This document shows, in pieces, positions 4,752 through 22,328 of a DNA stretch of 64,000 nt; the stretch's first letter is position 1; every line of letters starts with the position of its first letter. The notes under the pieces are model-generated. The model saw only the letters and a program-made list of their open reading frames with translations. It was not told where the DNA came from and ran no database searches. Source of the stretch: Paraflavitalea pollutisoli. Lineage in GTDB: Bacteria > Bacteroidota > Bacteroidia > Chitinophagales > Chitinophagaceae. A program made the translations under genes and the position numbers. The stretch is taken from NCBI RefSeq assembly GCF_029360705.1, contig NZ_JARKMX010000008.1, forward strand, positions 2,162,202-2,226,201. Reading direction: 5' to 3'.

Positions 4752-6542
4752 TTACCATCCGGGATTTTGCACCACCAGTTTCGACCGGTCCATATCATAT
4801 TGACTGATCGGGAACCAATAAGAGGCTGGGAAGCGGAACAGGTGTTCACTGGCCACCACTCGCGTGTAGAAACTGTTGTCATCCTTGTTGATGTTCATGC
4901 CGTGCATGGGGCCCATTACCTGTGGCGCGATCTTCCAGCGTCTGATATCGAACCAGCGATGTGTTTCGAAGGCCAGTTCTACCCTGCGTTCCTGCCAGAT
5001 CCTCGCCCGCATATCAGCCTGGCTCGCGGGCATGGACAGGTTGGCCGATCCATATTCAGGCACATTGGCGCGCACCCTTATCAGGTTGAGGTATTTGGCA
5101 ATGTCTGCATTCCCCGGGTCGTATTCATTCAGCGCTTCGGCATAGTTGAGGTACACTTCTGCCAGCCTGAACAGGCACAAGGGGCGTGCGTACCTGGTGC
5201 CATTACCACCAGATCCGGCATTGGTTTGCGTAGCCACATTTTTACGGACCAGGTAACCGGTCTTCGTAAAGTCGGTGGGATGTCCATTCTTGCCATTGGG
5301 GCTACCGGCAAAGAAGCTGATCGCTTTGGCGCTTTGCATATTACCGCCCTGGAACATGCTATTGTTGTAGGTGACCGACGCGTAGAACCGGGGTTCCCTG
5401 TTCATGTACATATTGGATACCTGAACGCCATTCACGGTTGTAAAACCAGCTTCGGTATACAGCCCAGATTCTCCAATCGGTTTTCCATCCGACATGAAAT
5501 AAGCATCTACCTGCTCCTGCGTTACGCCTACGCCATTCCAGCCACCGGCTTGCCTAGGCATGCAATGCACATCCCAGGTTGGCATATTGTTGTTCTTGCG
5601 GTTAAATATTTGCTCCGCATTCCAGGCCTGTAACAGCGCGCCCTGCACCGATTTGATGGGGTCATTGCCCGGATCTTTGTACAGGCTATACAATCCCAGG
5701 TCGATCACGGCCTTAGCCGCATCCGCCGCCCTTTTCCATTTACCGGCCTGGTAGCTTTGGTTGATCAGCTGACTCCCATCTTTATTTATAAAGCCGGCAA
5801 AGTCGGTATTGCCGTTATACAGCGGGCTTGCAGCATACAAGAGTAAGCGCGCTTTTACTGCCAGGGCCATACCCAAGGTAGCACGCCCATATTCGATGTC
5901 GCTGGCCTGACCGTTATTGGAAGGAATTCGTGGTAATACTGCGGCTGCTTTATCCAATTCGCTGGCCACATAGTCCACACAGGTATCGAATGCGCTGCGG
6001 GGCAATTGCATGGCTTCAGCAGAAGCATCGGCCGGTATCTCTGTTTCCCCAATGATCACTACCGGGCCATACTGCCGCATCAGCAGGAAATAAAAATAGG
6101 CGCGCAGAAACCGTGCCTCTGCTTTGTATTGATCGATCCGGGATTGACCATTCAGTGCCAGTATCTCCGCATTGTTGTCGATGTGGTTGATGAAATAGGT
6201 GGCTGAGCGAATGCCCCTGTAGTAGTTACCCCAGGTATCAAACAGCGTTGCGCCCGCACTGATATTGCCGATATTAAGGGCATAGGTGGGGTACTTGGAC
6301 CAGGTAATATCGATCTCATCCGAATTGCCTCCCCAGGGATTGCCTTCCCACTGACTGAAATCATCATTCACGTAATTGTACACATTGGCCAGGTATTGTT
6401 CGGAAGGTCCTTTCTTTTGAAACACCTGCTCGATGGTGATACGGTCATTGGGTACCTGCTCGAGGTATTTGTCGCAACCACTCGTAACCAACGTGACCAG
6501 GGTGCCTATAAGCAGTAAATTATAGCCTGTTATCTTTTTCAT
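4752..6542 (-). CDS. SusD/RagB-family outer-membrane glycan-binding lipoprotein
   Basis: A 596-residue SusD-type protein with lipobox VTSGC (Cys23). The N-terminus DKYLEQVPNDRIT is typical, as are the TPR-like helical segments (EARFLRAYFYFLLMRQYG near residue 140) and the C-terminal RWFDIRRWK / YWFPIS region. SusD proteins lie on the outer surface as a lid on the SusC channel and bind the glycan. The gene follows susC by 24 bp, so the two are cotranscribed. The specificity is unknown, but the beta-galactosidase two genes downstream suggests a galactoside-containing glycan (inference). Confidence 0.95.
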   Translation of the reverse strand: MKKITGYNLLLIGTLVTLVTSGCDKYLEQVPNDRITIEQVFQKKGPSEQYLANVYNYVNDDFSQWEGNPWGGNSDEIDITWSKYPTYALNIGNISAGATLFDTWGNYYRGIRSATYFINHIDNNAEILALNGQSRIDQYKAEARFLRAYFYFLLMRQYGPVVIIGETEIPADASAEAMQLPRSAFDTCVDYVASELDKAAAVLPRIPSNNGQASDIEYGRATLGMALAVKARLLLYAASPLYNGNTDFAGFINKDGSQLINQSYQAGKWKRAADAAKAVIDLGLYSLYKDPGNDPIKSVQGALLQAWNAEQIFNRKNNNMPTWDVHCMPRQAGGWNGVGVTQEQVDAYFMSDGKPIGESGLYTEAGFTTVNGVQVSNMYMNREPRFYASVTYNNSMFQGGNMQSAKAISFFAGSPNGKNGHPTDFTKTGYLVRKNVATQTNAGSGGNGTRYARPLCLFRLAEVYLNYAEALNEYDPGNADIAKYLNLIRVRANVPEYGSANLSMPASQADMRARIWQERRVELAFETHRWFDIRRWKIAPQVMGPMHGMNINKDDNSFYTRVVASEHLFRFPASYWFPISQYDMDRSKLVVQNPGW

Positions 6543-6566
6543 ATAGCGTAGTTATTTGGAAGGTCT

Positions 6567-9500
6567 CTATTTGAAAGAGCACTTGATGCCGAAATTGAAT
6601 GTCTTCGTCAATGGGTAGGTGGCCCCTTTGCCATCTCCCAACTCCACATCCCACATATCGAACTCACTTTTTGTCCATAGGTTGTATCCGATAAAATATA
6701 CACTGAGGTTGGACATACCGACATATTTGAGCCAAGATGAACGGGCAAAATCATAGGAAAGCTGCAAGGTCTGCAGACGAAGGAAGGCCCCATTCTTCAC
6801 CCACCAGGTGCTGTTCGCATAGTTCATATTGTCATTACCATAGGTAAGGCGGGGATACAGGGGGCGCGGGTTCGTATTATCGGGTGTCCAGCGATCCGTG
6901 ATCTGTTTCATCAGATTGCCTCGCTCTCCTCCCTGACTAAAGGGCTGCAGGCCATCGCCATTGAGCGAGATATCAACATTGCTGATCCCTTTGAACCAGC
7001 CTGCGATGGAAAATCCTTTCCAGGAAATAGTAGGTCCGAAGCCATATACAATCTCGGGAAAGGCGCCATAGCCAATAGGACCCTGATCGTAAGAGTCAAT
7101 CTTACCATCACCGTTCATGTCTTTGTATTTGATGTCGCCGGCTTTGTTGGTACCGGTTTGATAGGGGCTGTTGGCTACATCTTTGTCGTCCTTGAACAGG
7201 CCCAGATCGGTATAACCAAAACGTTGGCCAAACTTGCGGCCGATCCTTTGCTGCCAGGGATAAGGCCAGGGCGCGTTGGCATCGTCGATCACTTTGGCTC
7301 TCGTCCAGGTGAAATTACCACGCAGTCCGATCATCCAATCTTTACCGACCTGCTTGTTCAGATCGATCGAGGCATCGATACCGCGATTGTGCACTTCTCC
7401 CAGGTTGGCATAAGGCAATGACAATACCCCCACATAATTCGGCACATCACCGCGCTGACGGAAGATCGCTTTACGGTCTTCGCGGAATACATCCACCTGC
7501 AATGTCAGTGCATTGTTCCATGTCTTGAGCTCCACCCCCAGGTTTTGTTTGATGGCTTTTTCCCAAGTCACATTTACAGCATAGTCACCGATATCCAATC
7601 CATTGATGGTCTGGTTAGTGCCGTTTTGTCCGTAGGTATAGTTACCGTCGAGGTAACGATTGCCACCACCTACAGTAGATATGTAGGCAAAACGTCTGCC
7701 ACCTATATTACTGTTACCGACTTCTCCATAGGTGTATTTGACCTTCAGGAACTGAACAATATCGGAGAGCGGTTCGAAGAAGTCTTCCTGTGAAGCAACC
7801 CAGCCAACACCATAGGCCGGGAAAAAACCGTACCGTTTGTTGGGAGCAAAAGTTTCAGAGCCGTTGTAACCAAAATTAATATCTGCCAGGTATTTGCCGT
7901 CATAACCATAGGTAGCACGACCGGCTATACCCATAAACCGGAATGGAATAGATCCAATGAAATCACCCGCAAAGGCGTCCGATCGATCATACTGATTAAA
8001 GAGCAACATACCAGTTACATCATGGAGGCCAAATTTATTGATGTAGTTGACCGAAGCTTCCAGGTTGTATTGACGTGACCCACCATTTGCACGCTCATAG
8101 CCCAGAAAGCTGGTACCGATGGAGGTTTGATCCAGCAACAACTTGCCGGCTGAATCACGACCACGTGCGAGGTAGCCGTCCACCGATTTCGTACGACGGA
8201 TGGTATGGGTATTGTAGTTATCGAATGAATACATCGCTGTGGCCGACAGTCCTTTCAAGATCTTGCCCAAGTCCTGGGTTACCCGGATATTGCTCCACAA
8301 CTGACTTCTGAATTCTGTTACATAACCCGTTTGTGTTAGCCTGTTGTAAGGATTGAAGATATCGCCTGTCCGCAACTGCGAGTACAAACCATTGGAATAT
8401 ACCTTGGGAATAAGGATTGGTGGCAGCAGGTAGGCAGCACCCCAGATATCGCCCACGGAACTACCGGGAAAGTTACCGTTGCTGATCCAGCCTGCAGCAC
8501 CAAAATCAACCTTGGTCGACTTGGTCACTTTTAAGGTAAGATTAGAGGTAAAGTTGTACCTGGTAAATTTGATGGCCGAGTTATAGTTTGCCAGATCGTC
8601 TGTTTTGTACAAACCATTTTCATCATAATAACCGAGCGACAGATAGTACTGGGCATTGTCCGACCCACCGCTGGCATTCACCCGGGCACGCCGGTTCTGT
8701 CCTGTTTTCTTGAACAGTTCGGCAAACCAGTCTACATTGGGATACAGGTCGGGATCAACTCCGCTGATCGTCTTATCGATCCTGTCCTGCGTATATTTGG
8801 GAAGCGGATCGTTGGGATTGCTGTTGTGATAGGCTTCATTTGCCATCTGCATGTAGGTGACGCCGTCAGCAAACTCTGGCAACTGGGTAAACTGTGTGAT
8901 ACCCTGATCATATTGCATATTGATGAGGGGCTTACCAACCTTTCCTTTTTTCGTGGTAATGATGATCACGCCATTGGCGCCACGCACACCGTATACCGCA
9001 GTTGCAGAGGCATCCTTCAGTATACTGAAGCTGGCAATATCTTCAGGATCGACATTCGAAAAATCCCGCTCCACACCGTCCACTAAAATCAGCGGCCTGC
9101 TGTTGGTAAAGGTGGAGATGCCCCGGATGTAAATATCGGCGTTGTCATAACCTGGCTGACCACTGCGCTGCACTCCTACGATACCGGCTACACGACCAGC
9201 CAGCAGGTTGGTCATATTGGCAACCGGCTGTTTGAGGTCTTGCGCATTAACCGTACTGATGGCGCCGATCAGGCTCACCTTTTTTTGCTGGCCGTAACCT
9301 ACTACCACTACATCTTCGAGGCCCGTAGCCTGTTCGCGCAGGGTAATATTGATGACGGTGCTTTTGTTGACGACTACTTCCTGCGTAGTATATCCCACAT
9401 AGGAGAATACAAGCACGGGATTGCTTTCGGTGATCTTAATGGAATACAGCCCGTCCTTGTCGGAGGTAACGGTCGCCGTACCGCTTTTGGTGGAAACGGT

Positions 9501-11447: not shown

Positions 11448-12020
11448 ATTCCTCAACAACATAGTGACCAGGCCCTGATCACGTTATGGCAACAGGGAGA
11501 CGAACAGGCTTTTGAAAGCCTCTATCACCAGCACGCGGTGACTTTGCTCACCATCGCCCTGCAGAAAACGGATGACCGCGAGATCGCCAAAGAATTGGTA
11601 CAGAGTACATTTATTACCTTCTATAAGATCAAGGACACCGCGCATCAGATCAACAGTCTGCCTGCCTACCTGTATACCATCCTGAAAAACCGGCTGCTGG
11701 ATCATTACCGCCATGCACTGGTGCATCAGAAATTGCAGGACATGTCGCAGTACCGGCATGAACACGACACCGCCAATGATGTAGAGACTTATATAGATAC
11801 CCGGGAAATGGAACGCCGCCTGCAGGAAGAGATTGGCAAACTGCCTCCCCAATGTCAAATGGTGTTCAGGTTGCGGCGTGAAGAAGAATTATCCAATAAA
11901 GAGATCGCCCGGAGGCTCAGCATATCCGAGAATACGGTAGAGCAACATATGCGAAAGGCTATCCGGCTGCTTCGGGTAGCCATGAACATCAGCAAAAAAG
12001 CGTTGTTCACCCTGTTATAA
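11448..12020 (+). CDS. ECF RNA polymerase sigma factor (probable ATT start)
   Basis: The protein shows sigma region 2 (DQALITLWQQGDEQAFESLY, then AKELVQSTFITFYK) and region 4.2 (CQMVFRLRREEELSNKEIARRLSISENTVEQHMRKA). It is divergent from the FecR gene and should activate the SusCD operon. The first standard in-frame start is GTG at 11538, but that would cut away conserved region-2 sequence. The frame is open back to a stop at 11409 with no ATG, GTG or TTG. ATT at 11448 would give IPQQHSDQALITL, a normal-looking N-terminus with about 190 residues, and a candidate promoter sits just upstream. The sigma identity is certain; the start is inference. A sequencing error or a CTG start at 11475 are alternatives. 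Confidence 0.85.
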   Translation: MPQQHSDQALITLWQQGDEQAFESLYHQHAVTLLTIALQKTDDREIAKELVQSTFITFYKIKDTAHQINSLPAYLYTILKNRLLDHYRHALVHQKLQDMSQYRHEHDTANDVETYIDTREMERRLQEEIGKLPPQCQMVFRLRREEELSNKEIARRLSISENTVEQHMRKAIRLLRVAMNISKKALFTLL

Positions 12021-15046: not shown

Positions 15047-15613
15047 TTAGATGGACACTTCCATCGCACCCTCGTTGCCGGGCACATCGGTGGCAATAGC
15101 CACGATCCTGCTATCAGGAAGTTGACTATTGACCTTCGTTGCGGTATAGATCCAATCGATGCCATTGGAATCAAGGGTAGAATTTCCGGCCTCAATCAGT
15201 GTACCGGCGGCAGCATAGATCTCTACCCGCACACTGACCACCCGGAAATCATCGATCGCGCGGACCTTAAGCGTATTGCCGATCGCCCCTGTGTAATTGC
15301 GCACGTCGACCTTGCTTACCACGGGGGAAGACATAAAGTCCTGTACAGCCCTGGCGTAAACATTCTGACGGGGGCGCAATACTGCTGTATAGGCCTCAGC
15401 CATGCCCTTGTCGTCATTATTGACAACAGCTTTTGCGAACTTCGATGCATATAGGAACCTTTCCTGTATCTCAGCTTGCTCAGCACTTGGAGCGCCCTTC
15501 CTGCTTTTAGGCGACTTGGCGACGACTGTCTTGCCAGCCCAATCGCGAAAGACGATCTCTTTACCGAGTTGTCCGCTGAATTTCCCTGAAACGATACTGT
15601 TAACTTGTGCCAT
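15047..15613 (-). CDS. Uncharacterised 188-residue protein
   Basis: Starts MAQVNSIVSGKFSGQLGKEIVFRDW and continues with a basic stretch KSPKSRKGAPS, a helical segment (about 45-110), and a predicted beta-rich C-terminal half (VRAIDDFRVVSVRVEIY, then GIDWIYTATKV). The opening G-K-x-S-G-x-x-G pattern followed by a basic, proline-containing stretch resembles a small Bacteroidota family of unknown function, perhaps the DUF6266 type, but I could not confirm this. There is no signal peptide. It is a single-gene transcript with a clear terminator. No function is proposed. Confidence 0.7.
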   Translation of the reverse strand: MAQVNSIVSGKFSGQLGKEIVFRDWAGKTVVAKSPKSRKGAPSAEQAEIQERFLYASKFAKAVVNNDDKGMAEAYTAVLRPRQNVYARAVQDFMSSPVVSKVDVRNYTGAIGNTLKVRAIDDFRVVSVRVEIYAAAGTLIEAGNSTLDSNGIDWIYTATKVNSQLPDSRIVAIATDVPGNEGAMEVSI

Positions 15614-16097
15614 TGAAAATTGATTTTTAAGTGTTAATAGAAATAATTGGGTACCGGTAGCTGCCGGAGGAGAAGGTTAACAGGTTAGCCCTCCCGTTAG
15701 CCCTGGGCCAAACCCCTCCTGCCGCTACTGATGACACAAAAGTACAGCGGCACAAACCCCATCCGCTTGAAAATGGGGTGGCCTTCGACCGATCTTGTGA
15801 TGACCTTCGACGATAGTTGGGATGAACGGGCAGTTTTACCCGGATTTATATTTTTTCGGGGATGGAGATACTAAAATCCTGTGATGGTTGCCGGTATGTG
15901 GTGTGATGAACGGGAGGTTTTACACGCCTTCTTCTCTGTTCCTCCTCGATTCCACCTCTGTAGCCCCTCGGGTCCCGAGAAGGCAATGAGGAGGAACAGA
16001 GGTCCTACTCTGTAGAAAGAGGCGATTTTTTTCGGATATATTCAAAACAATACATATATTGAATACATATTAAATCCATCAACGATTGTCCAATAGC
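15614..16097. other. Structured intergenic region without a supported gene
   Basis: No convincing reading frame is present. Two near-repeats of GATGAACGGG-x-x-GTTTTAC occur about 80 bp apart (near 15824 and 15904). A 14-bp inverted repeat (15934-15947 with 15988-16001) encloses a second perfect hairpin CTCGGG-T-CCCGAG (15967-15979). The region before 16098 is AT-rich and may hold the promoter of the LytTR gene. Confidence 0.5.
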
Positions 16098-16418
16098 ATG
16101 CAAAAACCGTTTTTTGTCTGGCTTAAAAAAAAGCTCCGCAGAATTGACCCCGAAGAGGTCATGGCCTTGGTTACCGAAGGAAACTATACCAAAATCTTTC
16201 TTTCCGATCAAACGCATTGTATGGTGCGAACAACACTCACAGCCGCATTGAAAAAACTTCCGCCAGATATGTTCATCAGAACACACCGCTCTTGTGCTGT
16301 ATCGATATTTTACATCAATAACATCGAAAAGGACTGTTTAACCATTGGTGAACACCCAATCCCCATCGCGAAGCGCTATTACAAGTCTGTGTTCGAGCAG
16401 TTGAATATTATTGAGTGA
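16098..16418 (+). CDS. Single-domain LytTR DNA-binding protein
   Basis: 106 residues from ATG at 16098; a TTG four codons earlier is possible. Nearly the whole protein is a LytTR domain (EVMALVTEGNYTKIFL, TTLTAALKKLPPDMFIRTHRSCAVSIFYINNI, IPIAKRYYKSV). There is no receiver domain, so phosphorylation control would have to come from elsewhere. It precedes the AT-rich defence island but points the same way as CBASS and is separated from it by the convergent ImmA/IrrE gene. Its target is unknown. Confidence 0.85.
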   Translation: MQKPFFVWLKKKLRRIDPEEVMALVTEGNYTKIFLSDQTHCMVRTTLTAALKKLPPDMFIRTHRSCAVSIFYINNIEKDCLTIGEHPIPIAKRYYKSVFEQLNIIE

Positions 16419-16625: not shown

Positions 16626-17390
16626 TCATGCAGTCCATATACATGTTACCAAGCTTTTTTCACCTACAGGAAAACATTGTTCCCAAAGTTTACGGTTTGG
16701 TTCTCGTTGTGCCGTGTAATCTTCAGGGAACCACTCAATGGCGTGTACTTTTTCCGGAGTCGGCTCTATAACCCCTCTATAATGATGATCACCGGCTACT
16801 GTGTATGATGGTAATGGAGTACCTGTAGGTAACCATTTATAAGGAAAGTCATTTGAGTGTTGTTTCCATTTAATTACGCCGTTTTCGATAAAGACAACCA
16901 TAACCGGATATTCCCCATGTTCCCGGTATCGTAAAAAAGTGGCAGTCTTAGAAGTACCGAAATATGCAGCTACATTTTCGATCAACTTTACACTAAGCTT
17001 CTCTTTACTGACTTTCTTTTTAAACAACGTCTCAGGCATCAGCAATTCGGCTGCAAACTCATTCGCTTCTTTTTCATGTGTTCCCTTGGCATACCATTCA
17101 TTCAGGGTAAGCTTGTTGTCAGTAAAAAAAGAAAGGTGCTTATGGAGCCGCGCATGCCCTATTTCATGGGCAATCACGTAATTAATCTTCGGTTGGTAAT
17201 TTATCGCCGCTTTAACATTAACAATACCCATATTTCCATTCATAAGAATATGCCCATCACTACCTTCCATATCCTTACGCTGTACCATTAGCCCACATGC
17301 ATAGGCCATTTCTTCGATAGTAAGGTCACCCGGAGTGGACCATCCCAATTCATCTAATAGCAGTTGTGCTTCACGGCTTGGACGACTCAT
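16626..17390 (-). CDS. ImmA/IrrE-family zinc metallopeptidase
   Basis: 254 residues. The zinc motif HEIGH is at 75-79 (YVIAHEIGHARLHKH) and the third-ligand segment KEANEFAAELLMP is at about 107-119. Family members cleave DNA-binding repressors (ImmA, IrrE, CapP). The usual N-terminal helix-turn-helix is absent, so the DNA-binding partner must be separate. The C-terminal 110 residues look like a sensory or regulatory extension with many aromatic residues. Its start overlaps the end of the preceding small gene by 20 bp, forming a tight operon with a sigma-like protein that runs divergently from CBASS. A role as the CapP-like switch of this CBASS is inferred from position only. Confidence 0.88.
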   Translation of the reverse strand: MSRPSREAQLLLDELGWSTPGDLTIEEMAYACGLMVQRKDMEGSDGHILMNGNMGIVNVKAAINYQPKINYVIAHEIGHARLHKHLSFFTDNKLTLNEWYAKGTHEKEANEFAAELLMPETLFKKKVSKEKLSVKLIENVAAYFGTSKTATFLRYREHGEYPVMVVFIENGVIKWKQHSNDFPYKWLPTGTPLPSYTVAGDHHYRGVIEPTPEKVHAIEWFPEDYTAQREPNRKLWEQCFPVGEKSLVTCIWTA

Positions 17391-17790
17391 CGGATTGGGA
17401 GTTACTAAGCTTATCTTTTAATATACTAAACAAATGCAGCAGCTCTTGATCTTCGGCTATGGAACCTTTATCTTTTTCGGTAAGTTGTTCAAATCGGTTA
17501 AATAACGGTTGTAATTGCTGCATCTCCCGCTGAGAAAGCATTTGTTTTAATTTATCAAAACCGAATTCCTTTAGACGTTTTACCTCCGCAACCAGGTTAC
17601 TATATAGCGACTTTTGCCGCACTGCTTTTAATTTTGCAGTCCGAAGCTTTATTTGCCGTAAATGCTTTGTAATGAATGGATCTTGTTCATAACTATCCCC
17701 TTCCCAAATATCTTCATCAGGCTCATGAAAATTCATGTCCAGCAACAGGCCGTACAGATGGTTTAATATCTCAGCGTTTGACTTTTGCAT
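17371..17790 (-). CDS. Small helical protein of the sigma-like/metallopeptidase operon
   Basis: 139 residues from ATG at 17790; ATG at 17805 is possible. It is almost entirely charged, predicted helical sequence (KHLRQIKLRTAKLKAVRQ, LVAEVKRLKEFGFDKLKQML, then EMQQLQPLFNRFEQL), with no cysteine motif, signal or membrane segment. The start overlaps the end of the sigma-like gene by 20 bp and its end overlaps the peptidase gene, so all three are translationally coupled. I do not recognise the family. By position it may link the peptidase to the sigma-like protein, for example as an adaptor, inhibitor or cleavage target (inference). Confidence 0.75.
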   Translation of the reverse strand: MQKSNAEILNHLYGLLLDMNFHEPDEDIWEGDSYEQDPFITKHLRQIKLRTAKLKAVRQKSLYSNLVAEVKRLKEFGFDKLKQMLSQREMQQLQPLFNRFEQLTEKDKGSIAEDQELLHLFSILKDKLSNSQSDESSKP

Positions 17791-18421
17791 AGTAATCCGA
17801 TTCAAAATAAGGAGAAGACTGAATTTTCCTGATAAAAACTTCGCGTAGTTTATAAACTTGCTTAGGCGTCTTTTCCATTATAGCAGCAATTTCCGCCGGT
17901 TTCATGCCTTCTTTGATACAATCCCAGAACAGTACACATTCAGTGTCCCTTTGAATTATGGCTTCTATCGCCTGGATTTTCTGATCAAGGATCAGTTGGT
18001 CCATATCACTCCCCCCCTCCGGCAATTCTTCCTGCTGGTAAAAGTATGTTTCCAGATCGTCAAAAACGCCCCCATAAACCACCTCTGGCTCACCATTCTT
18101 CTGCTCAACCCTAAACTTATTAACCTCTGTATCAATTACACTGCCAGCGATCCGGCAAAGCTGCTGTGAAAGCGTGTGTCCGTCCTTCCACTGCCAGGAT
18201 CCGTTGAGCACGGCTTCAATGGCATATCCGACATAGTAATCAATAGCTTCCGCACCCAACCTTGTGGCGGAGTGAGCCCCAAAATGGGTTCGTTTAGCCA
18301 GACGGATACACACCTCCCTCCGGCATTTCTCTATAGCGGCTGCCCAGGCAGCCTCTACATTTTGTAAACCATCCAGCTTTTGATGGTTCCTTTCAAAGTA
18401 TTCTCCAGTTTCTATATCCAT
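17771..18421 (-). CDS. Sigma-70-like DNA-binding protein divergent from CBASS
   Basis: 216 residues. The C-terminal part (about 145-200) looks like sigma region 4: LDQKIQAIEAIIQRDTECVL, then FWDCIKEGMKPAEIAAIMEKTP and KQVYKLREVFIRKIQ. The middle (about 55-100) could be a diverged region 2 (AIDYYVGYAIEAVL, LSQQLCRIAGSVIDTEV). The aromatic core-binding and -10-melting residues of true sigma factors are not obvious, so it may be a sigma-derived regulator rather than an active sigma. It is the first gene of the three-gene operon and shares a 94-bp intergenic region with the CBASS phospholipase gene, so it is well placed to control both promoters. Confidence 0.75.
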   Translation of the reverse strand: MDIETGEYFERNHQKLDGLQNVEAAWAAAIEKCRREVCIRLAKRTHFGAHSATRLGAEAIDYYVGYAIEAVLNGSWQWKDGHTLSQQLCRIAGSVIDTEVNKFRVEQKNGEPEVVYGGVFDDLETYFYQQEELPEGGSDMDQLILDQKIQAIEAIIQRDTECVLFWDCIKEGMKPAEIAAIMEKTPKQVYKLREVFIRKIQSSPYFESDYYAKVKR

Positions 18422-18515
18422 TATAACCGAAAAATTTTCTTTTTCCCTTTCGGGTAATTTCAGTTGACGACGGTTAGGTAATAATAACGGACAAAAGCTC
18501 CTGGTAACTAATATA
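18422..18515. promoter_or_regulatory. 94-bp divergent control region between the sigma-like operon and CBASS
   Basis: This AT-rich stretch must hold the promoters of both divergent operons. A short symmetric element CCCTTTCGGG lies at about 18446-18455 and a TAATAATAAC run near 18479. No good match to TTTG/TAnnTTTG was found on either strand, which would fit use of a dedicated regulator or sigma factor. Confidence 0.5.
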
Positions 18516-19529
18516 ATGAAAATGATAAAATTATTAACAAAAGAAGATTACAGACCGTTCAAGATCTTGTGTATAGATGGTGGCGGGATAAAAGGGCTCT
18601 ATTCAGCTACAGTGCTGGAGCACCTGGAGCAACGGTTTGGCCCCTGTGGAGAATACTTCGATATGATCTGCGGCACCTCCACCGGCGGGTTGATCGCTCT
18701 GGGACTTGCCCTTGGAAAACCGGCAACAGAGATCAGTACGCTCTACGCCGATGAAGGGAGGAAGATATTTCCACGTAGCATCGTACCCTTTGGACGTCGA
18801 ATCTGCCAGGCATTATGGGGCGGCAAGTACTCCGACAGGCCGTTAAAGAAGATTCTGGAAGCCTTTTTCCAGGAAAAGAAGGTCGGCGATTTAAAGAACC
18901 TGATCTGCATTCCATCCTATTCGGTCACGGATGCGCGCCCTTGGGTGTTCAAACGTGACCACGGCCTTCTGGATCGTGATAATGGCACTCTCCTGGTCGA
19001 CGTTGCATTAGCCACCTCGGCAGCACCTACGTTTTTCCCACTATGTGAGATTCCAAGATACGACCATAAACAGTTCATTGATGGTGGTGTCTGGGCCAAC
19101 AACCCCACTCTTGTGGGGATTATTGAAGCCTTAACCTATTTCGTCGGTAAAGACAAGCCATTCAATGCCGTAGAGGTGCTGTCCGTTAGCAGCCTCAGCA
19201 ATACCGGCGGTAAATCAGTAGGGCTTTCCAGACACCGGTCATTTATACGCTGGGGCGCCGACCTATTCGACACTTCCCTTAATGGGCAGAGCGTCTTTAC
19301 GGACTACTTCCTTCAGAAGTTATGCGAAATGAACGACATCAAGTTCAAATACGTGCGTATTCCATCGGAACTGGTATCTGCAGAGCAACAACATCTTGTA
19401 AAATTGGATTGTGCCCGAACCAAGGCCATACGGTTCATCAGGGGAAAGGGTAATGATAGGGGTACCATGGCCAAAAAAGACCCAACGATTGCCGCATTTT
19501 TCAATAACAAAAAACTATATAATATATAA
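18516..19529 (+). CDS. capV: CBASS effector: patatin-like phospholipase (CapV type)
   Basis: 337 residues. Patatin features are the oxyanion loop DGGGIKGLYS (21-30), nucleophile Ser55 in GTSTGG, and catalytic Asp189 in FIDGGVWANNP. In CBASS a CapV phospholipase is switched on by the cyclic nucleotide made by the neighbouring CD-NTase and degrades the inner membrane, killing the infected cell. It is the first gene of a plus-strand operon and is followed after 4 bp by the CD-NTase gene. The catalytic residues are intact. Base composition is AT-richer than the flanking housekeeping genes, as expected for a transferred defence module. Confidence 0.95.
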   Translation: MKMIKLLTKEDYRPFKILCIDGGGIKGLYSATVLEHLEQRFGPCGEYFDMICGTSTGGLIALGLALGKPATEISTLYADEGRKIFPRSIVPFGRRICQALWGGKYSDRPLKKILEAFFQEKKVGDLKNLICIPSYSVTDARPWVFKRDHGLLDRDNGTLLVDVALATSAAPTFFPLCEIPRYDHKQFIDGGVWANNPTLVGIIEALTYFVGKDKPFNAVEVLSVSSLSNTGGKSVGLSRHRSFIRWGADLFDTSLNGQSVFTDYFLQKLCEMNDIKFKYVRIPSELVSAEQQHLVKLDCARTKAIRFIRGKGNDRGTMAKKDPTIAAFFNNKKLYNI

Positions 19530-19533
19530 GACT

Positions 19534-20592
19534 ATGGCACACTTACACGAGACCTTCAAACAGTATAATCAGGTTATACGACTATCAGATGAGAAAAGGG
19601 ATGAACTGATTCGCTCACGTAACGAACTCCGAGCACGCATCAGCAGCCGCCACAAACTACATCAGAATACCGCTCAAAAACCATACGAAGAGCTTGAATT
19701 CCAAAGTCAGGGGTCTTTTGAGATGGACACCATTATTGCACCTGAAAACGACGACTATGACCTGGACGACGGTGTATACTTTATAGGTAAATTGCCTGCC
19801 AGCCAAAGACCTGCGCCAACAGTTTTCCATAAGGCAATCATTGATGCAATTGGCAACTACGATTCTTCCAAAGAGGTGATCGACAAGGACACCTGCGTAC
19901 GCGTAATAGAAAAGAAGGGGTTTCATATTGACCTCCCTATCTATTATGCTGGCAATAAGGAATGCCCGGATCTCGCAGTAAAATCCAAAGGCTGGATACT
20001 GAGCAATCCGATTGAATTTATTGCCTGGTTTGAAGAAAAGGCCCAGTCGGGATTCAAGAAGGGGTTTCTTTATGAGGCAAAGCTTTTTTCGGAGTACGAA
20101 AGATGGCTGGGTGATGTGCGTAAAAATGACGTCCAGATCAGACGAATAGTACGATACCTTAAAGCTTGGGGTGACTTAAGAAGGGAGGAGATGCCCTGCG
20201 GGCTGGTTATGACGATCCTGGTTGCAAACAATTATTATCCGCATGACAGGGATGATATTTCGTTGAAAGAGACCCTTGTTTTGATAGAGAGTGCCTTGCG
20301 CAAAGACTTCAAATGCCTGCGCCCTACATCTCCGCAGGGAGAAGACCTACTGGCTAGCTATAACAACAAAGAGGCATTCATGCGTTACCTTCAATATTTT
20401 ATCGATAACGCTAAAAAAGCACTGACAGAAGAAGATCACACTATTGCTTGTGAACACTGGAGGAAAAGCCTTGGCAAACGCTTTAAATGCCAGGAAAAGC
20501 AACAGCTTAATGTTGCACCTTATGTCAAGGCAACAACCAGCCTTGCTGCGGGAGCAGGAACATCCAAACCTTATAGCCGCATAAATGAGTAA
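19534..20592 (+). CDS. CBASS cyclic oligonucleotide synthase (CD-NTase, DncV-like)
   Basis: 352 residues from ATG at 19534. The nucleotidyltransferase core shows G60-S61-F (QGSFEMDTI), the metal-binding Asp pair D76/D78 in DYDLDDGVYF, and the third Asp D133 in FHIDLPIYY. The DLDDGVYF segment is typical of the DncV-like clade, whose members make cyclic dinucleotides; the exact product cannot be read. The linked CapV effector would be its receptor. The tail is loosely structured, alanine- and glycine-containing, and ends SRINE, not in a terminal glycine or alanine as in many Cap2-conjugated CD-NTases. The stop overlaps the next start by 8 bp. Confidence 0.95.
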   Translation: MAHLHETFKQYNQVIRLSDEKRDELIRSRNELRARISSRHKLHQNTAQKPYEELEFQSQGSFEMDTIIAPENDDYDLDDGVYFIGKLPASQRPAPTVFHKAIIDAIGNYDSSKEVIDKDTCVRVIEKKGFHIDLPIYYAGNKECPDLAVKSKGWILSNPIEFIAWFEEKAQSGFKKGFLYEAKLFSEYERWLGDVRKNDVQIRRIVRYLKAWGDLRREEMPCGLVMTILVANNYYPHDRDDISLKETLVLIESALRKDFKCLRPTSPQGEDLLASYNNKEAFMRYLQYFIDNAKKALTEEDHTIACEHWRKSLGKRFKCQEKQQLNVAPYVKATTSLAAGAGTSKPYSRINE

Positions 20593-21244
20593 AGGATATT
20601 TGTGTTTTCTGGAGCAGTTAGACGAAGCCATTAAGCGCTACCCCACCCTGCAAAAAAAAGAGGTGAATGAGCGGACTATTTTAGCTGGTCGTTTGTCAGT
20701 TATTGACCGGGACGGGCAACAATGGGATGAGTATGAGGTGGAAATTCATGCTACAGACTTGTTTCCCAACCGGTTCCCGGATCTTTACGAAACCGGCGGA
20801 AAGATTCCCCGTATTGGTGATTGGCATATTAATGAAGACACGTTCACCTGTTGCATTACCGTACCTCCTGAAGAGATCATTCGCTGCAAAAAAGGAATCA
20901 ATCTATGCACCTACATTAGTGAGCAGGTCATGCCCTACCTGTTCAATCAAACGCATCGGCGGGTCGAAGGATATTATGTCAACGGGGAATATTCGCATGG
21001 AATTAGGGGATTGATGGAGTATTACAGCGATCTTCTCCAGACAGGAGATGATGTTTATACTACCGTAAGACTGATCATTTTTATCGCGGAACACAATCGC
21101 CCATTGCGGACTAGTCTATGTTTCTGCGGTAGTAGTTTAAAATACCGTCACTGTCACAGAATTGCATACGAACAGTTAAAGGAGTTGGATAAAGAACACT
21201 TACTTCAGCATGCCATACTTATAGCAAAACGTTATGGCCTTTAA
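20585..21244 (+). CDS. CBASS E2-like protein with C-terminal SEC-C zinc motif (type II-short accessory)
   Basis: 219 residues. The first 150 resemble a bacterial E2 fold: EVEIHATDLFPNRFPDLYETGGKIPR, then DWHINEDTFTCCITVP, where His81 and Cys89/Cys90 match the HxN...C arrangement of E2 active sites. No E1 or JAB partner is encoded, which marks type II-short CBASS. Residues 179-191 (CFCGSSLKYRHCH) form a SEC-C-like zinc site. It probably handles the CD-NTase (priming or complex formation) rather than acting as effector. The start overlaps the CD-NTase stop. E2 assignment is by pattern; the zinc motif is clear. Confidence 0.8.
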   Translation: MSKGYLCFLEQLDEAIKRYPTLQKKEVNERTILAGRLSVIDRDGQQWDEYEVEIHATDLFPNRFPDLYETGGKIPRIGDWHINEDTFTCCITVPPEEIIRCKKGINLCTYISEQVMPYLFNQTHRRVEGYYVNGEYSHGIRGLMEYYSDLLQTGDDVYTTVRLIIFIAEHNRPLRTSLCFCGSSLKYRHCHRIAYEQLKELDKEHLLQHAILIAKRYGL

Positions 21245-21449: not shown

Positions 21450-22328
21450 ATGCAACGTATCCCGGAATCGGAACTGATTATCAATCATCGGGGGGCTATC
21501 TACCACCTCGATGTACGTCCAGAAGAGCTTGCCGGCACCATTATCACCGTCGGCGATCCCGACCGCGTAGCCCAGGTCAGCAAGCATTTTGACCGCATCG
21601 AATTCCAGCGCCAGCACCGCGAATTCGTTACCCACACTGGGTTTGTTGGGAACAACCGGGTGTCCGTCGTCTCCACCGGCATCGGGCCCGACAATATCGA
21701 CATCGTCCTCAACGAACTCGACGCCCTCGTCAACATCGACTTCGACACCCGCACCATCAAACCCGAACACACTACCTTAAATATTATACGCGTGGGCACC
21801 TCCGGGGCCCTGCAAGCTGATATTCCGGTCGACAGCTACGTGGTTTCCACCTACGGCCTCGGTATCGACAACCTCCTCAACTTCTACCGCCACGAGGAAA
21901 ACGACGCCGAAAAACAGCTGCTCCAGGCCTTTATCACCCAAACCCAGCTCCACAGCCGCATCTCGCAGCCTTATATAGCTTCCTGCAGCGGCCACCTCAT
22001 GAAGCATTTTGCGGGCGATGGCTTTCATGCGGGCATAACTGTCACCTGCCCCGGATTTTACGGTCCCCAGGGCCGTGTACTCCGCCTTGGCCTCAGCAAT
22101 CCCAATCTAATCGACCTATTGACCGAATTTAGCTACGGCGTTCACCGCATCACCAATTTTGAGATGGAAACCTCCGGCATCTATGGCCTGGGCCGCCTCC
22201 TGGGGCACCACTGCCTCTCGCTCAGCGCCATTGTAGCCAACCGGGTCGTTAAAGAATTCTCAAAAGATGGCAGTCTGGCCGTTCAGGGCCTCATTACCAA
22301 AACACTGGAAGTGGTGGCCGCGTTATGA
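21450..22328 (+). CDS. Nucleoside phosphorylase (uridine phosphorylase-like)
   Basis: 292 residues. Typical PNP/UDP-family motifs are present: TVGDPDR (phosphate binding), STGIGPDNIDIVLNEL, IIRVGTSGALQ, and NFEMETSGIYGLGRLLGH, which carries the ribose-binding Glu-Met-Glu. It should cleave nucleosides phosphorolytically in salvage; uridine is the likeliest substrate from the overall pattern, but purine use is possible. It starts after the tRNA gene on the opposite strand and is followed by dapF. Its base composition returns to the GC-richer host type, marking the right edge of the defence island. Confidence 0.9.
   Translation: MQRIPESELIINHRGAIYHLDVRPEELAGTIITVGDPDRVAQVSKHFDRIEFQRQHREFVTHTGFVGNNRVSVVSTGIGPDNIDIVLNELDALVNIDFDTRTIKPEHTTLNIIRVGTSGALQADIPVDSYVVSTYGLGIDNLLNFYRHEENDAEKQLLQAFITQTQLHSRISQPYIASCSGHLMKHFAGDGFHAGITVTCPGFYGPQGRVLRLGLSNPNLIDLLTEFSYGVHRITNFEMETSGIYGLGRLLGHHCLSLSAIVANRVVKEFSKDGSLAVQGLITKTLEVVAAL

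Follow-up and report, generated by a model that had tools for sequence, protein, structure and literature searches.

The window analysed here is a stretch of 64,000 nucleotides of DNA from Paraflavitalea pollutisoli, and our subject is a trio of minus-strand genes within it (16626-18421) that faces, across 94 bp, an operon of a cyclic oligonucleotide-based antiphage signalling system (CBASS) encoding a patatin, a cGAMP synthase and an E2 protein. In order of transcription, the trio encodes a sigma-like protein (P3, 216 residues), a small protein (P2, 139 residues) and a peptidase (P1, 254 residues), and both of its junctions are 20-bp overlaps. An earlier note, made from the letters alone, had described three overlapping minus-strand genes that share 94 bp with a CBASS operon, and the coordinates, the overlaps and the family matches confirm this layout, in which the following features were placed.

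16626..17390, minus strand: P1, a CapP-like M78 zinc peptidase of 254 residues with HEIGH at residues 75-79 (PADLOC, Pfam and PDB matches)
17371..17790, minus strand: P2, a small charged helical protein of 139 residues, proposed anti-sigma factor and CapP substrate (putative role)
17771..18421, minus strand: P3, an extracytoplasmic function (ECF) family sigma factor of 216 residues, proposed activator of both divergent operons (putative role)
18422..18515, no strand: control region of 94 bp common to both operons, proposed two-way ECF promoter
18424..18429, plus strand: TAACCG arm, proposed -35 element for the CBASS operon (from clade comparison; putative function)
18445..18454, no strand: central inverted repeat CCCTTTCGGG, proposed -10 element common to both directions (putative function)
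18471..18476, minus strand: CGGTTA arm, which reads TAACCG on this strand; proposed -35 element of the trio operon (putative function)
18516..19529, plus strand: CBASS patatin phospholipase effector (NF041079, 7.4e-99)
19534..20592, plus strand: CBASS DncV-like cyclic dinucleotide synthase (NF041078, 1.6e-66; PADLOC Cyclase, 1.3e-104)
20585..21244, plus strand: CBASS E2-like protein with a SEC-C motif (PADLOC E2, 7.2e-71; SEC-C, 1.6e-5)

The 94 bp lie between the patatin ATG at 18516 and the start of P3. P2 is counted from its ATG (the list of open reading frames, ORFs, extends it to a TTG, giving 144 residues), and the DncV-like synthase is taken from an inner ATG (the list has a GTG start at 19411). 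The CBASS operon (18516-21244) comprises cyclase, effector and E2 without an E1 or JAB gene, the next ORF (21450-22328) being not E1-like by reading; we take this arrangement to be the one called 'type II-short'. The same six genes occur in Chitinophaga sp. Ak27 (locus L004), whose P3, P2 and P1 are 80%, 88% and 86% identical to those of the window.

P1 is, by its family matches, a CapP homologue. The PADLOC capP model matches it at 4.8e-60 (residues 3-252, model positions 4-240 of 242), Pfam Peptidase_M78 matches it at 1.5e-13, and its only solved relative at E≤0.01 is CapP (7t5t, 1.1e-7). Within its HEIGH zinc site (HExxH), H75, E76 and H79 are invariant in three orthologues, and no helix-turn-helix (HTH) family was listed for P1 in the Pfam and PADLOC scans, in line with the note's observation of a HEIGH site without an HTH of its own. 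Control of CBASS and further immune operons by CapH/CapP is said to have been described by Lau et al. CapP itself, according to the accessible parts of two papers (PMC13373217, PMC10904395), is activated by single-stranded DNA (ssDNA) and cleaves the repressor CapH. No CapH repressor adjoins P1; an ECF-type sigma gene and P2 stand there instead, and the note's CapP-like peptidase without CapH therefore stands.

The same three-gene order recurs widely. Searching 395 Bacteroidota genomes with capP gave, among the matches listed, 38 places at which the match reaches at least capP position 239 (G471:C33, split over two frames, was counted once). Matches that end earlier were omitted, including the fusions of G004 and G031 and shorter ImmA-type matches; of these, the surroundings of G031, G413, G297, G484 and the G004 region were looked at. 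When the upstream ORFs of the 38 places were scanned with P3 and P2 profiles, P3-like and P2-like genes appeared in the same order at 31 (again among the matches listed), a frequency at near-full-length CapP places that we consider to be beyond chance. Five of the remaining seven have a CapH-type HTH gene (L068, L091-L094), one has P2 with no sigma gene within the 1.9 kb scanned (L083), and one has neither (L069). Sigma and P2 genes were present at none of the five places with a CapH-type gene, where the label reflects a reading of the HTH translations and no HTH scan was run on the 31 trios. Twenty-four of the 31 trio sigmas had been part of the finding profile, and the other seven (L072, L077, L080, L082, L085, L088, L090) score 6e-13 or better; as a control, a P3-like ORF was found in 0 of 45 ImmA-type loci from viral contigs. 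At L095, CapP is split over two frames (6998 to ~7760), so that this trio may be decayed or mis-sequenced.

The split between the two kinds of partner is mirrored in the peptidase itself, as a tree of 41 CapP proteins has a single branch (99/98) dividing 36 sigma-linked from 5 CapH-linked members (of the 38 places, L069, L083, L088, L090, L093 and L095 were omitted, and L004, L009 and L130-L136 were added). The sigma/P2 pair is the commonest partner of CapP in our Bacteroidota survey and apparently also occurs on alphaproteobacterial plasmids: of 120 plasmid records matched, four were opened, and two of alphaproteobacterial origin have the sigma-P2-CapP order. On the Azospirillum plasmid the first gene of the trio is annotated 'sigma-70 family RNA polymerase sigma factor'. 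Of the two plasmid sigmas, the P3 profile lists that from Bradyrhizobium (0.009) but not that from Azospirillum, and the P2 profile lists neither plasmid trio. Searched with the P3 profile, the phylum gave 14 matched genomes, 11 of them weak (E of 9e-6 or worse), and none of the six weak ones looked at was a trio; in the family, 26 of 31 matched genomes were weak (2.5e-5 or worse).

Profile comparison assigns P3, along its length, to the ECF sigma family. Of 27 relatives from the trios, 22 match TIGR02937 at E≤0.1 (best value 2.1e-19), the window P3 not being one of them. When 19 relatives that do not belong to the window clade were made into a profile, it matched solved ECF sigmas, the best at 6.5e-9 and several over both domains. 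A seven-member profile of the window clade in turn aligns to this independent profile at 97.7% (E=1.6e-12, 173 columns), where a CapP alignment used as control scores 0.1%; alone against the PDB, the clade profile finds ECF RpoE only at 0.03. Sigma regions 2 and 4 are thus seen in one protein through the clade profile, not through the window protein alone. These comparisons support the note's description of a sigma-derived 216-residue partner. The note had gone on to give this protein the repressor role, which is probably wrong: because both sigma domains are kept across the family and the control region resembles two ECF promoters set face to face, P3 more likely activates than represses.

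Judged by the spacing that ECF promoters keep for RNA polymerase and by the layout of two-way promoters, the 94-bp region looks like a two-way ECF promoter, reading from either side as a -35 element, an ECF-like spacer and a common -10 element. The pattern TAACC-N42-46-GGTTA occurs in six of the seven intergenic regions of the window clade (window, L004, L009, L023, L130 and L131) and in 0 of 20 regions of other trio loci, and is therefore restricted to one sigma clade; when each of the six regions was shuffled, the dyad arose in 2-25 of 2000 shuffles. All six dyads have a central inverted repeat of 10-12 bp lying 15-16 bp from each six-base arm (manual count), with the arms 40-44 bp apart around it. 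The dyad of the window rests on this clade comparison, not on the significance of the single region. Other trio loci have dyads with other arms, such as TATGCTC in L064, L065 and L071 and TATAGCTG in L076. In the genome, the 24-bp left half-promoter occurs once at ≤3 mismatches and the arm pattern at 5 places, compared with 30 for the reversed control, and the predicted target of the sigma factor is for this reason the present locus; the other four places appear GC-rich and lack A/T tracts.

The region also bears on the view that the sigma-derived P3 is a DNA-binding repressor of CBASS, with P2 as its adaptor or co-repressor and CapP destroying one of the two upon DNA damage, as in the logic of CapH/CapP. 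The known partner of CapP is a repressor (PMC13373217, in the part available), the P3 of the window is diverged and alone matches no sigma model, and 2 nt separate one arm of the dyad from the start codon of the sigma gene, where binding could block. However, the retention of both sigma domains is family-wide, arms 40-44 bp apart with a central repeat are better explained by a pair of sigma promoters than by a single dimer site, and it is P2 rather than P3 that carries a repressor-like tail. We consider repression by P3 unlikely on these grounds and favor its action as an activator.

P2 has no family match in Pfam, PADLOC or NCBIfam, but it is conserved between the sigma and CapP genes across the trio loci, and its tail (FNRFEQLTEKDKGSIAEDQELLHL) shows a weak resemblance, though one beyond chance, to those of repressors encoded just before ImmA/CapP peptidases, such as that of L068 (YRNIDNLTAEDREF). 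A profile made from the tail only ranks peptidase-adjacent ORFs (34 of 736) above the rest, with p=1.8e-7 when both tail groups were used and 9e-5 with the first group alone; with both groups, the top four of the 736 ORFs are peptidase-adjacent. The full P2 profile matches the CapH of L091 at 2e-4 (and not the other four CapH-type genes). Among 1315 control ORFs it has a single match at E≤0.1, to an HTH repressor encoded ahead of an ImmA gene (0.003). P2 appears to lie outside the recognisable known anti-sigma families, and yet these resemblances suggest that it is a probable anti-sigma factor and CapP substrate, which supports one of the two roles that the note had offered for the small protein, that of cleavage target. 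That P2 silences its cognate sigma factor we infer from co-inheritance and gene order. Two other readings were dropped: a toxin-antitoxin system, for want of a toxin-like partner, and direct cutting of the sigma factor by CapP, the repressor-like tail being that of P2.

At two loci (L008, 8090-9703; L096, 6818-8452), a sigma-like gene precedes a gene for a fused peptidase (537 and 544 residues, respectively). The L096 fusion starts with the N-terminal half of P2 (7.9e-5), while the L008 fusion has no match to the P2 profile. Both loci also hold a kinase/adenylosuccinate-synthetase-like gene and face ubiquitin-like genes (by reading).

A distant genome that faces a ubiquitin-like operon (L023) gives some insight into which parts of the trio travel together. 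Its sigma factor groups with the window clade (100/99), a placement with L073, L075 and L133 being rejected (p=0.0007), and its P2 groups there as well (91/92; alternative p=0.059). Its CapP does not (p=0.016). The L023 locus carries the same TAACCG arms as the window clade. The clade groups in this comparison were named after the trees had been seen, and the P2 tree has long branches. It thus looks as though CapP can change while sigma factor, P2 and promoter remain associated, the behaviour that a sigma/anti-sigma pair would predict. The gene order and this co-inheritance would suit any obligate sigma partner, including a P2 that serves an active sigma factor as chaperone or co-activator, with CapP ending the response by cleaving P2 or the sigma factor. 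Against this stands the P2 tail, which is like those of repressors beside ImmA/CapP peptidases, where cleavage switches the system on (PMC13373217 and PMC10904395, accessible parts); moreover, it is difficult to see why a defence operon should be switched off upon DNA damage. We regard a helper role as slightly less plausible even than repression by P3, and retain P2 as a probable anti-sigma factor.

The 31 trios face CBASS in 7 cases (window, L060, L063, L064, L067, L070, L073), ubiquitin-like conjugation operons in 9 (L023, L061, L062, L065, L066, L074, L076, L077, L079), Tn7-like genes in 1 and none of these in 14 (L071, L072, L078, L080, L081, L082, L084-L090, L095). Family matches identify the cyclases of all seven CBASS loci, the ubiquitin-like genes of L061, L065, L074 and L079 and the TnsA of L075, while L023, L062, L066, L076 and L077 were assigned by reading of translations only. 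The note's suggestion of a control module common to other defence operons is borne out, as 16 of 31 trios face CBASS or ubiquitin-like operons. The trio is accordingly not found mostly away from defence genes, the outcome that the note had named as telling against it, although 14 of 31 face nothing recognised as CBASS, ubiquitin-like or Tn7-like. Opposite the trio of L075 (3633-6334) lie genes for a TnsA-like protein and a Mu-type transposase, possibly a hint at damage-controlled Tn7-like transposition. Beyond the 38 places, L004, L009, L130 and L131 face CBASS (L130 and L131 by reading), a Spirosoma plasmid trio faces a ubiquitin-like gene (by reading), and the trio on a Pontibacter actiniarum plasmid (L133) faces annotated multiubiquitin and ThiF genes. 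In the last, CapP is immediately followed by umuD and a gene for a Y-family DNA polymerase (5919-7639), which hints at DNA-damage control.

In two of the 14, the genes downstream of CapP resemble, by reading, CRISPR-Cas genes (L086, ~0.4-6 kb away on the strand of the trio) and restriction-modification genes (L080). The trios of L081, L084, L085, L087 and L090 sit among ordinary chromosomal genes; at L085, L087 and L090, the sigmas are canonical ECF-like, the neighbours are truB/ribF-like and no defence genes were seen, and these three are perhaps a general DNA-damage response. (The neighbour gene names Bub, TnsB, truB and ribF are those that we take to apply.) It could be argued from these five loci, and from the 14 trios with no recognised operon opposite, that the trio is throughout a free-standing DNA-damage sigma response with its regulon elsewhere, lying near defence operons through incidental clustering in islands. 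For the window, the single genomic occurrence of the half-promoter and the GC-rich look of the other four full-dyad places, without A/T tracts, speak against a regulon elsewhere, and we hold this to be the least probable of the alternatives, and improbable in itself.

Some further genes were noticed around the trios. About 1 kb beyond CapP, the window has a minus-strand gene of a 'GKxSGxxGxxVFRxxxGK' family (15047-15613), and genes of this type were also seen by eye near the trios of L072, L080, L086, L088 and L089. By eye, an ECF-sigma-like ORF lies at 11538-12020 (plus strand) and a LytTR-like ORF at 16086-16418 (plus strand), the latter convergent with CapP and just past its end.

We propose, with a probability of roughly 0.6, that the trio is a sigma/anti-sigma/protease switch that turns on the facing CBASS operon upon DNA damage. 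In the unstressed cell, P2 would keep the ECF-type sigma factor P3 inactive. ssDNA arising from phage attack or repair would activate CapP, a trigger carried over by analogy from published CapP and PprI, and CapP would then cut P2 near its repressor-like tail and so free the sigma factor. Once freed, the sigma factor would use a single symmetric promoter in the 94 bp to transcribe both operons. Expression of CBASS would rise together with that of sigma factor, P2 and CapP themselves, giving positive feedback, and fresh P2 would reset the switch. The order and overlaps of the genes, their homologies, the recurrence of the trio and the clade-restricted dyad were observed directly; binding of P2 to the sigma factor, cleavage of P2 and activation over repression are the steps that we infer.

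Several observations weigh against this proposal. The P3 of the window alone has no significant sigma match in Pfam, PADLOC or NCBIfam, giving sub-threshold HTH matches only. Its structure model is poor (two models, that of P3 among them, were built from two sequences each and have pLDDT of 52 and 55), and Foldseek found nothing at E≤0.001 with it, the top match being ECF SigH at only E=0.23. P2 has no recognisable anti-sigma domain, with no Pfam match and no anti-sigma factor among its PDB matches up to E=10; single matches of its tail are weak (E=0.073), and no DdrO came up when the PDB was searched with the tail profile. Since the P2 tail is absent from the L096 fusion, cleavage in that protein would have to proceed differently, and the grouping of the L023 P2 with the window clade is not firm, given its support and the p-value of the alternative. 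As for the promoter, L008 belongs to the window clade and lacks the arms, the dyad is not significant on the window alone (p=0.61 and 0.22), a general dyad scan gave p≤0.02 in only 4 of 20 regions (L023, L060, L064, L065), and an arm scan gave p≤0.05 in only 6 of 27 (L062, L064, L065, L071, L074, L076). Lastly, for 14 of 31 trios the facing genes were not recognised as CBASS, ubiquitin-like or Tn7-like.

The following comparisons with known systems draw on the accessible parts of the papers cited. The DNA-damage immune controllers CapH/CapP, CapW and CapK/CapS all act by lifting a repressor (PMC13373217). The trio shares with CapH/CapP the CapP peptidase, the divergent placement beside CBASS and a likely DNA-damage input, but it has an ECF-type sigma factor and P2 instead of CapH, its CapP lies across one tree branch from the CapH-linked CapPs (found at 5 of the 38 places of the same survey), and activation rather than derepression is predicted. 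If our proposal holds, the trio resembles CalpL-CalpT-CalpS of type III CRISPR in that a defence-linked protease cleaves an anti-sigma factor and frees a sigma factor; this likeness is one of logic. CalpL, in contrast, is a Lon-SAVED protease triggered by cyclic tetra-adenylate (cA4), whereas the trio has an M78 peptidase with a presumed ssDNA trigger (PMC12751052). PprI of Deinococcus is likewise an M78-type peptidase, is activated by ssDNA and cleaves the C-terminal region of a regulator, but that regulator, DdrO, is an HTH repressor, and PprI/DdrO as described there includes no sigma factor (PMC10904395). CapK/CapS is also a DNA-damage controller beside immune operons that resembles parts of sigma pathways, but consists of a kinase and a STAS-domain repressor and, in what is accessible of its description, of neither sigma factor nor protease (PMC13373217). 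By its composition, then, the trio is a CapP peptidase with an ECF-family sigma factor, and neither a CapH/CapP module nor a Calp system. In keeping with the note, which knew of no module of such make-up, we found no description of a sigma-P2-CapP module in the literature searched, which comprised titles and the starts of abstracts, with most subscription papers (Lau et al. 2022 among them) outside it.

The trio thus appears to join two known kinds of system, damage-triggered immune controllers and protease-released sigma factors, in a combination that looks new. More broadly, and at somewhat less than even odds, CapP with a dedicated sigma/anti-sigma pair may form a further, activating class of immune controller that acts on CBASS, ubiquitin-like and Tn7-like operons (perhaps also on CRISPR-Cas and restriction-modification) through a symmetric two-way promoter, and that in some lineages serves as a free-standing DNA-damage sigma response. 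If the proposal is true, these operons would receive a real on-signal with built-in amplification, not a lifted repressor, and the control of most CapP-linked operons in the Bacteroidota survey would be explained. The targets of such a controller would be predictable from a short promoter dyad, and the trio would be a second case of defence-triggered anti-sigma cleavage, carried out by an unrelated protease. The coupling of immune expression to DNA damage would then become directly testable.

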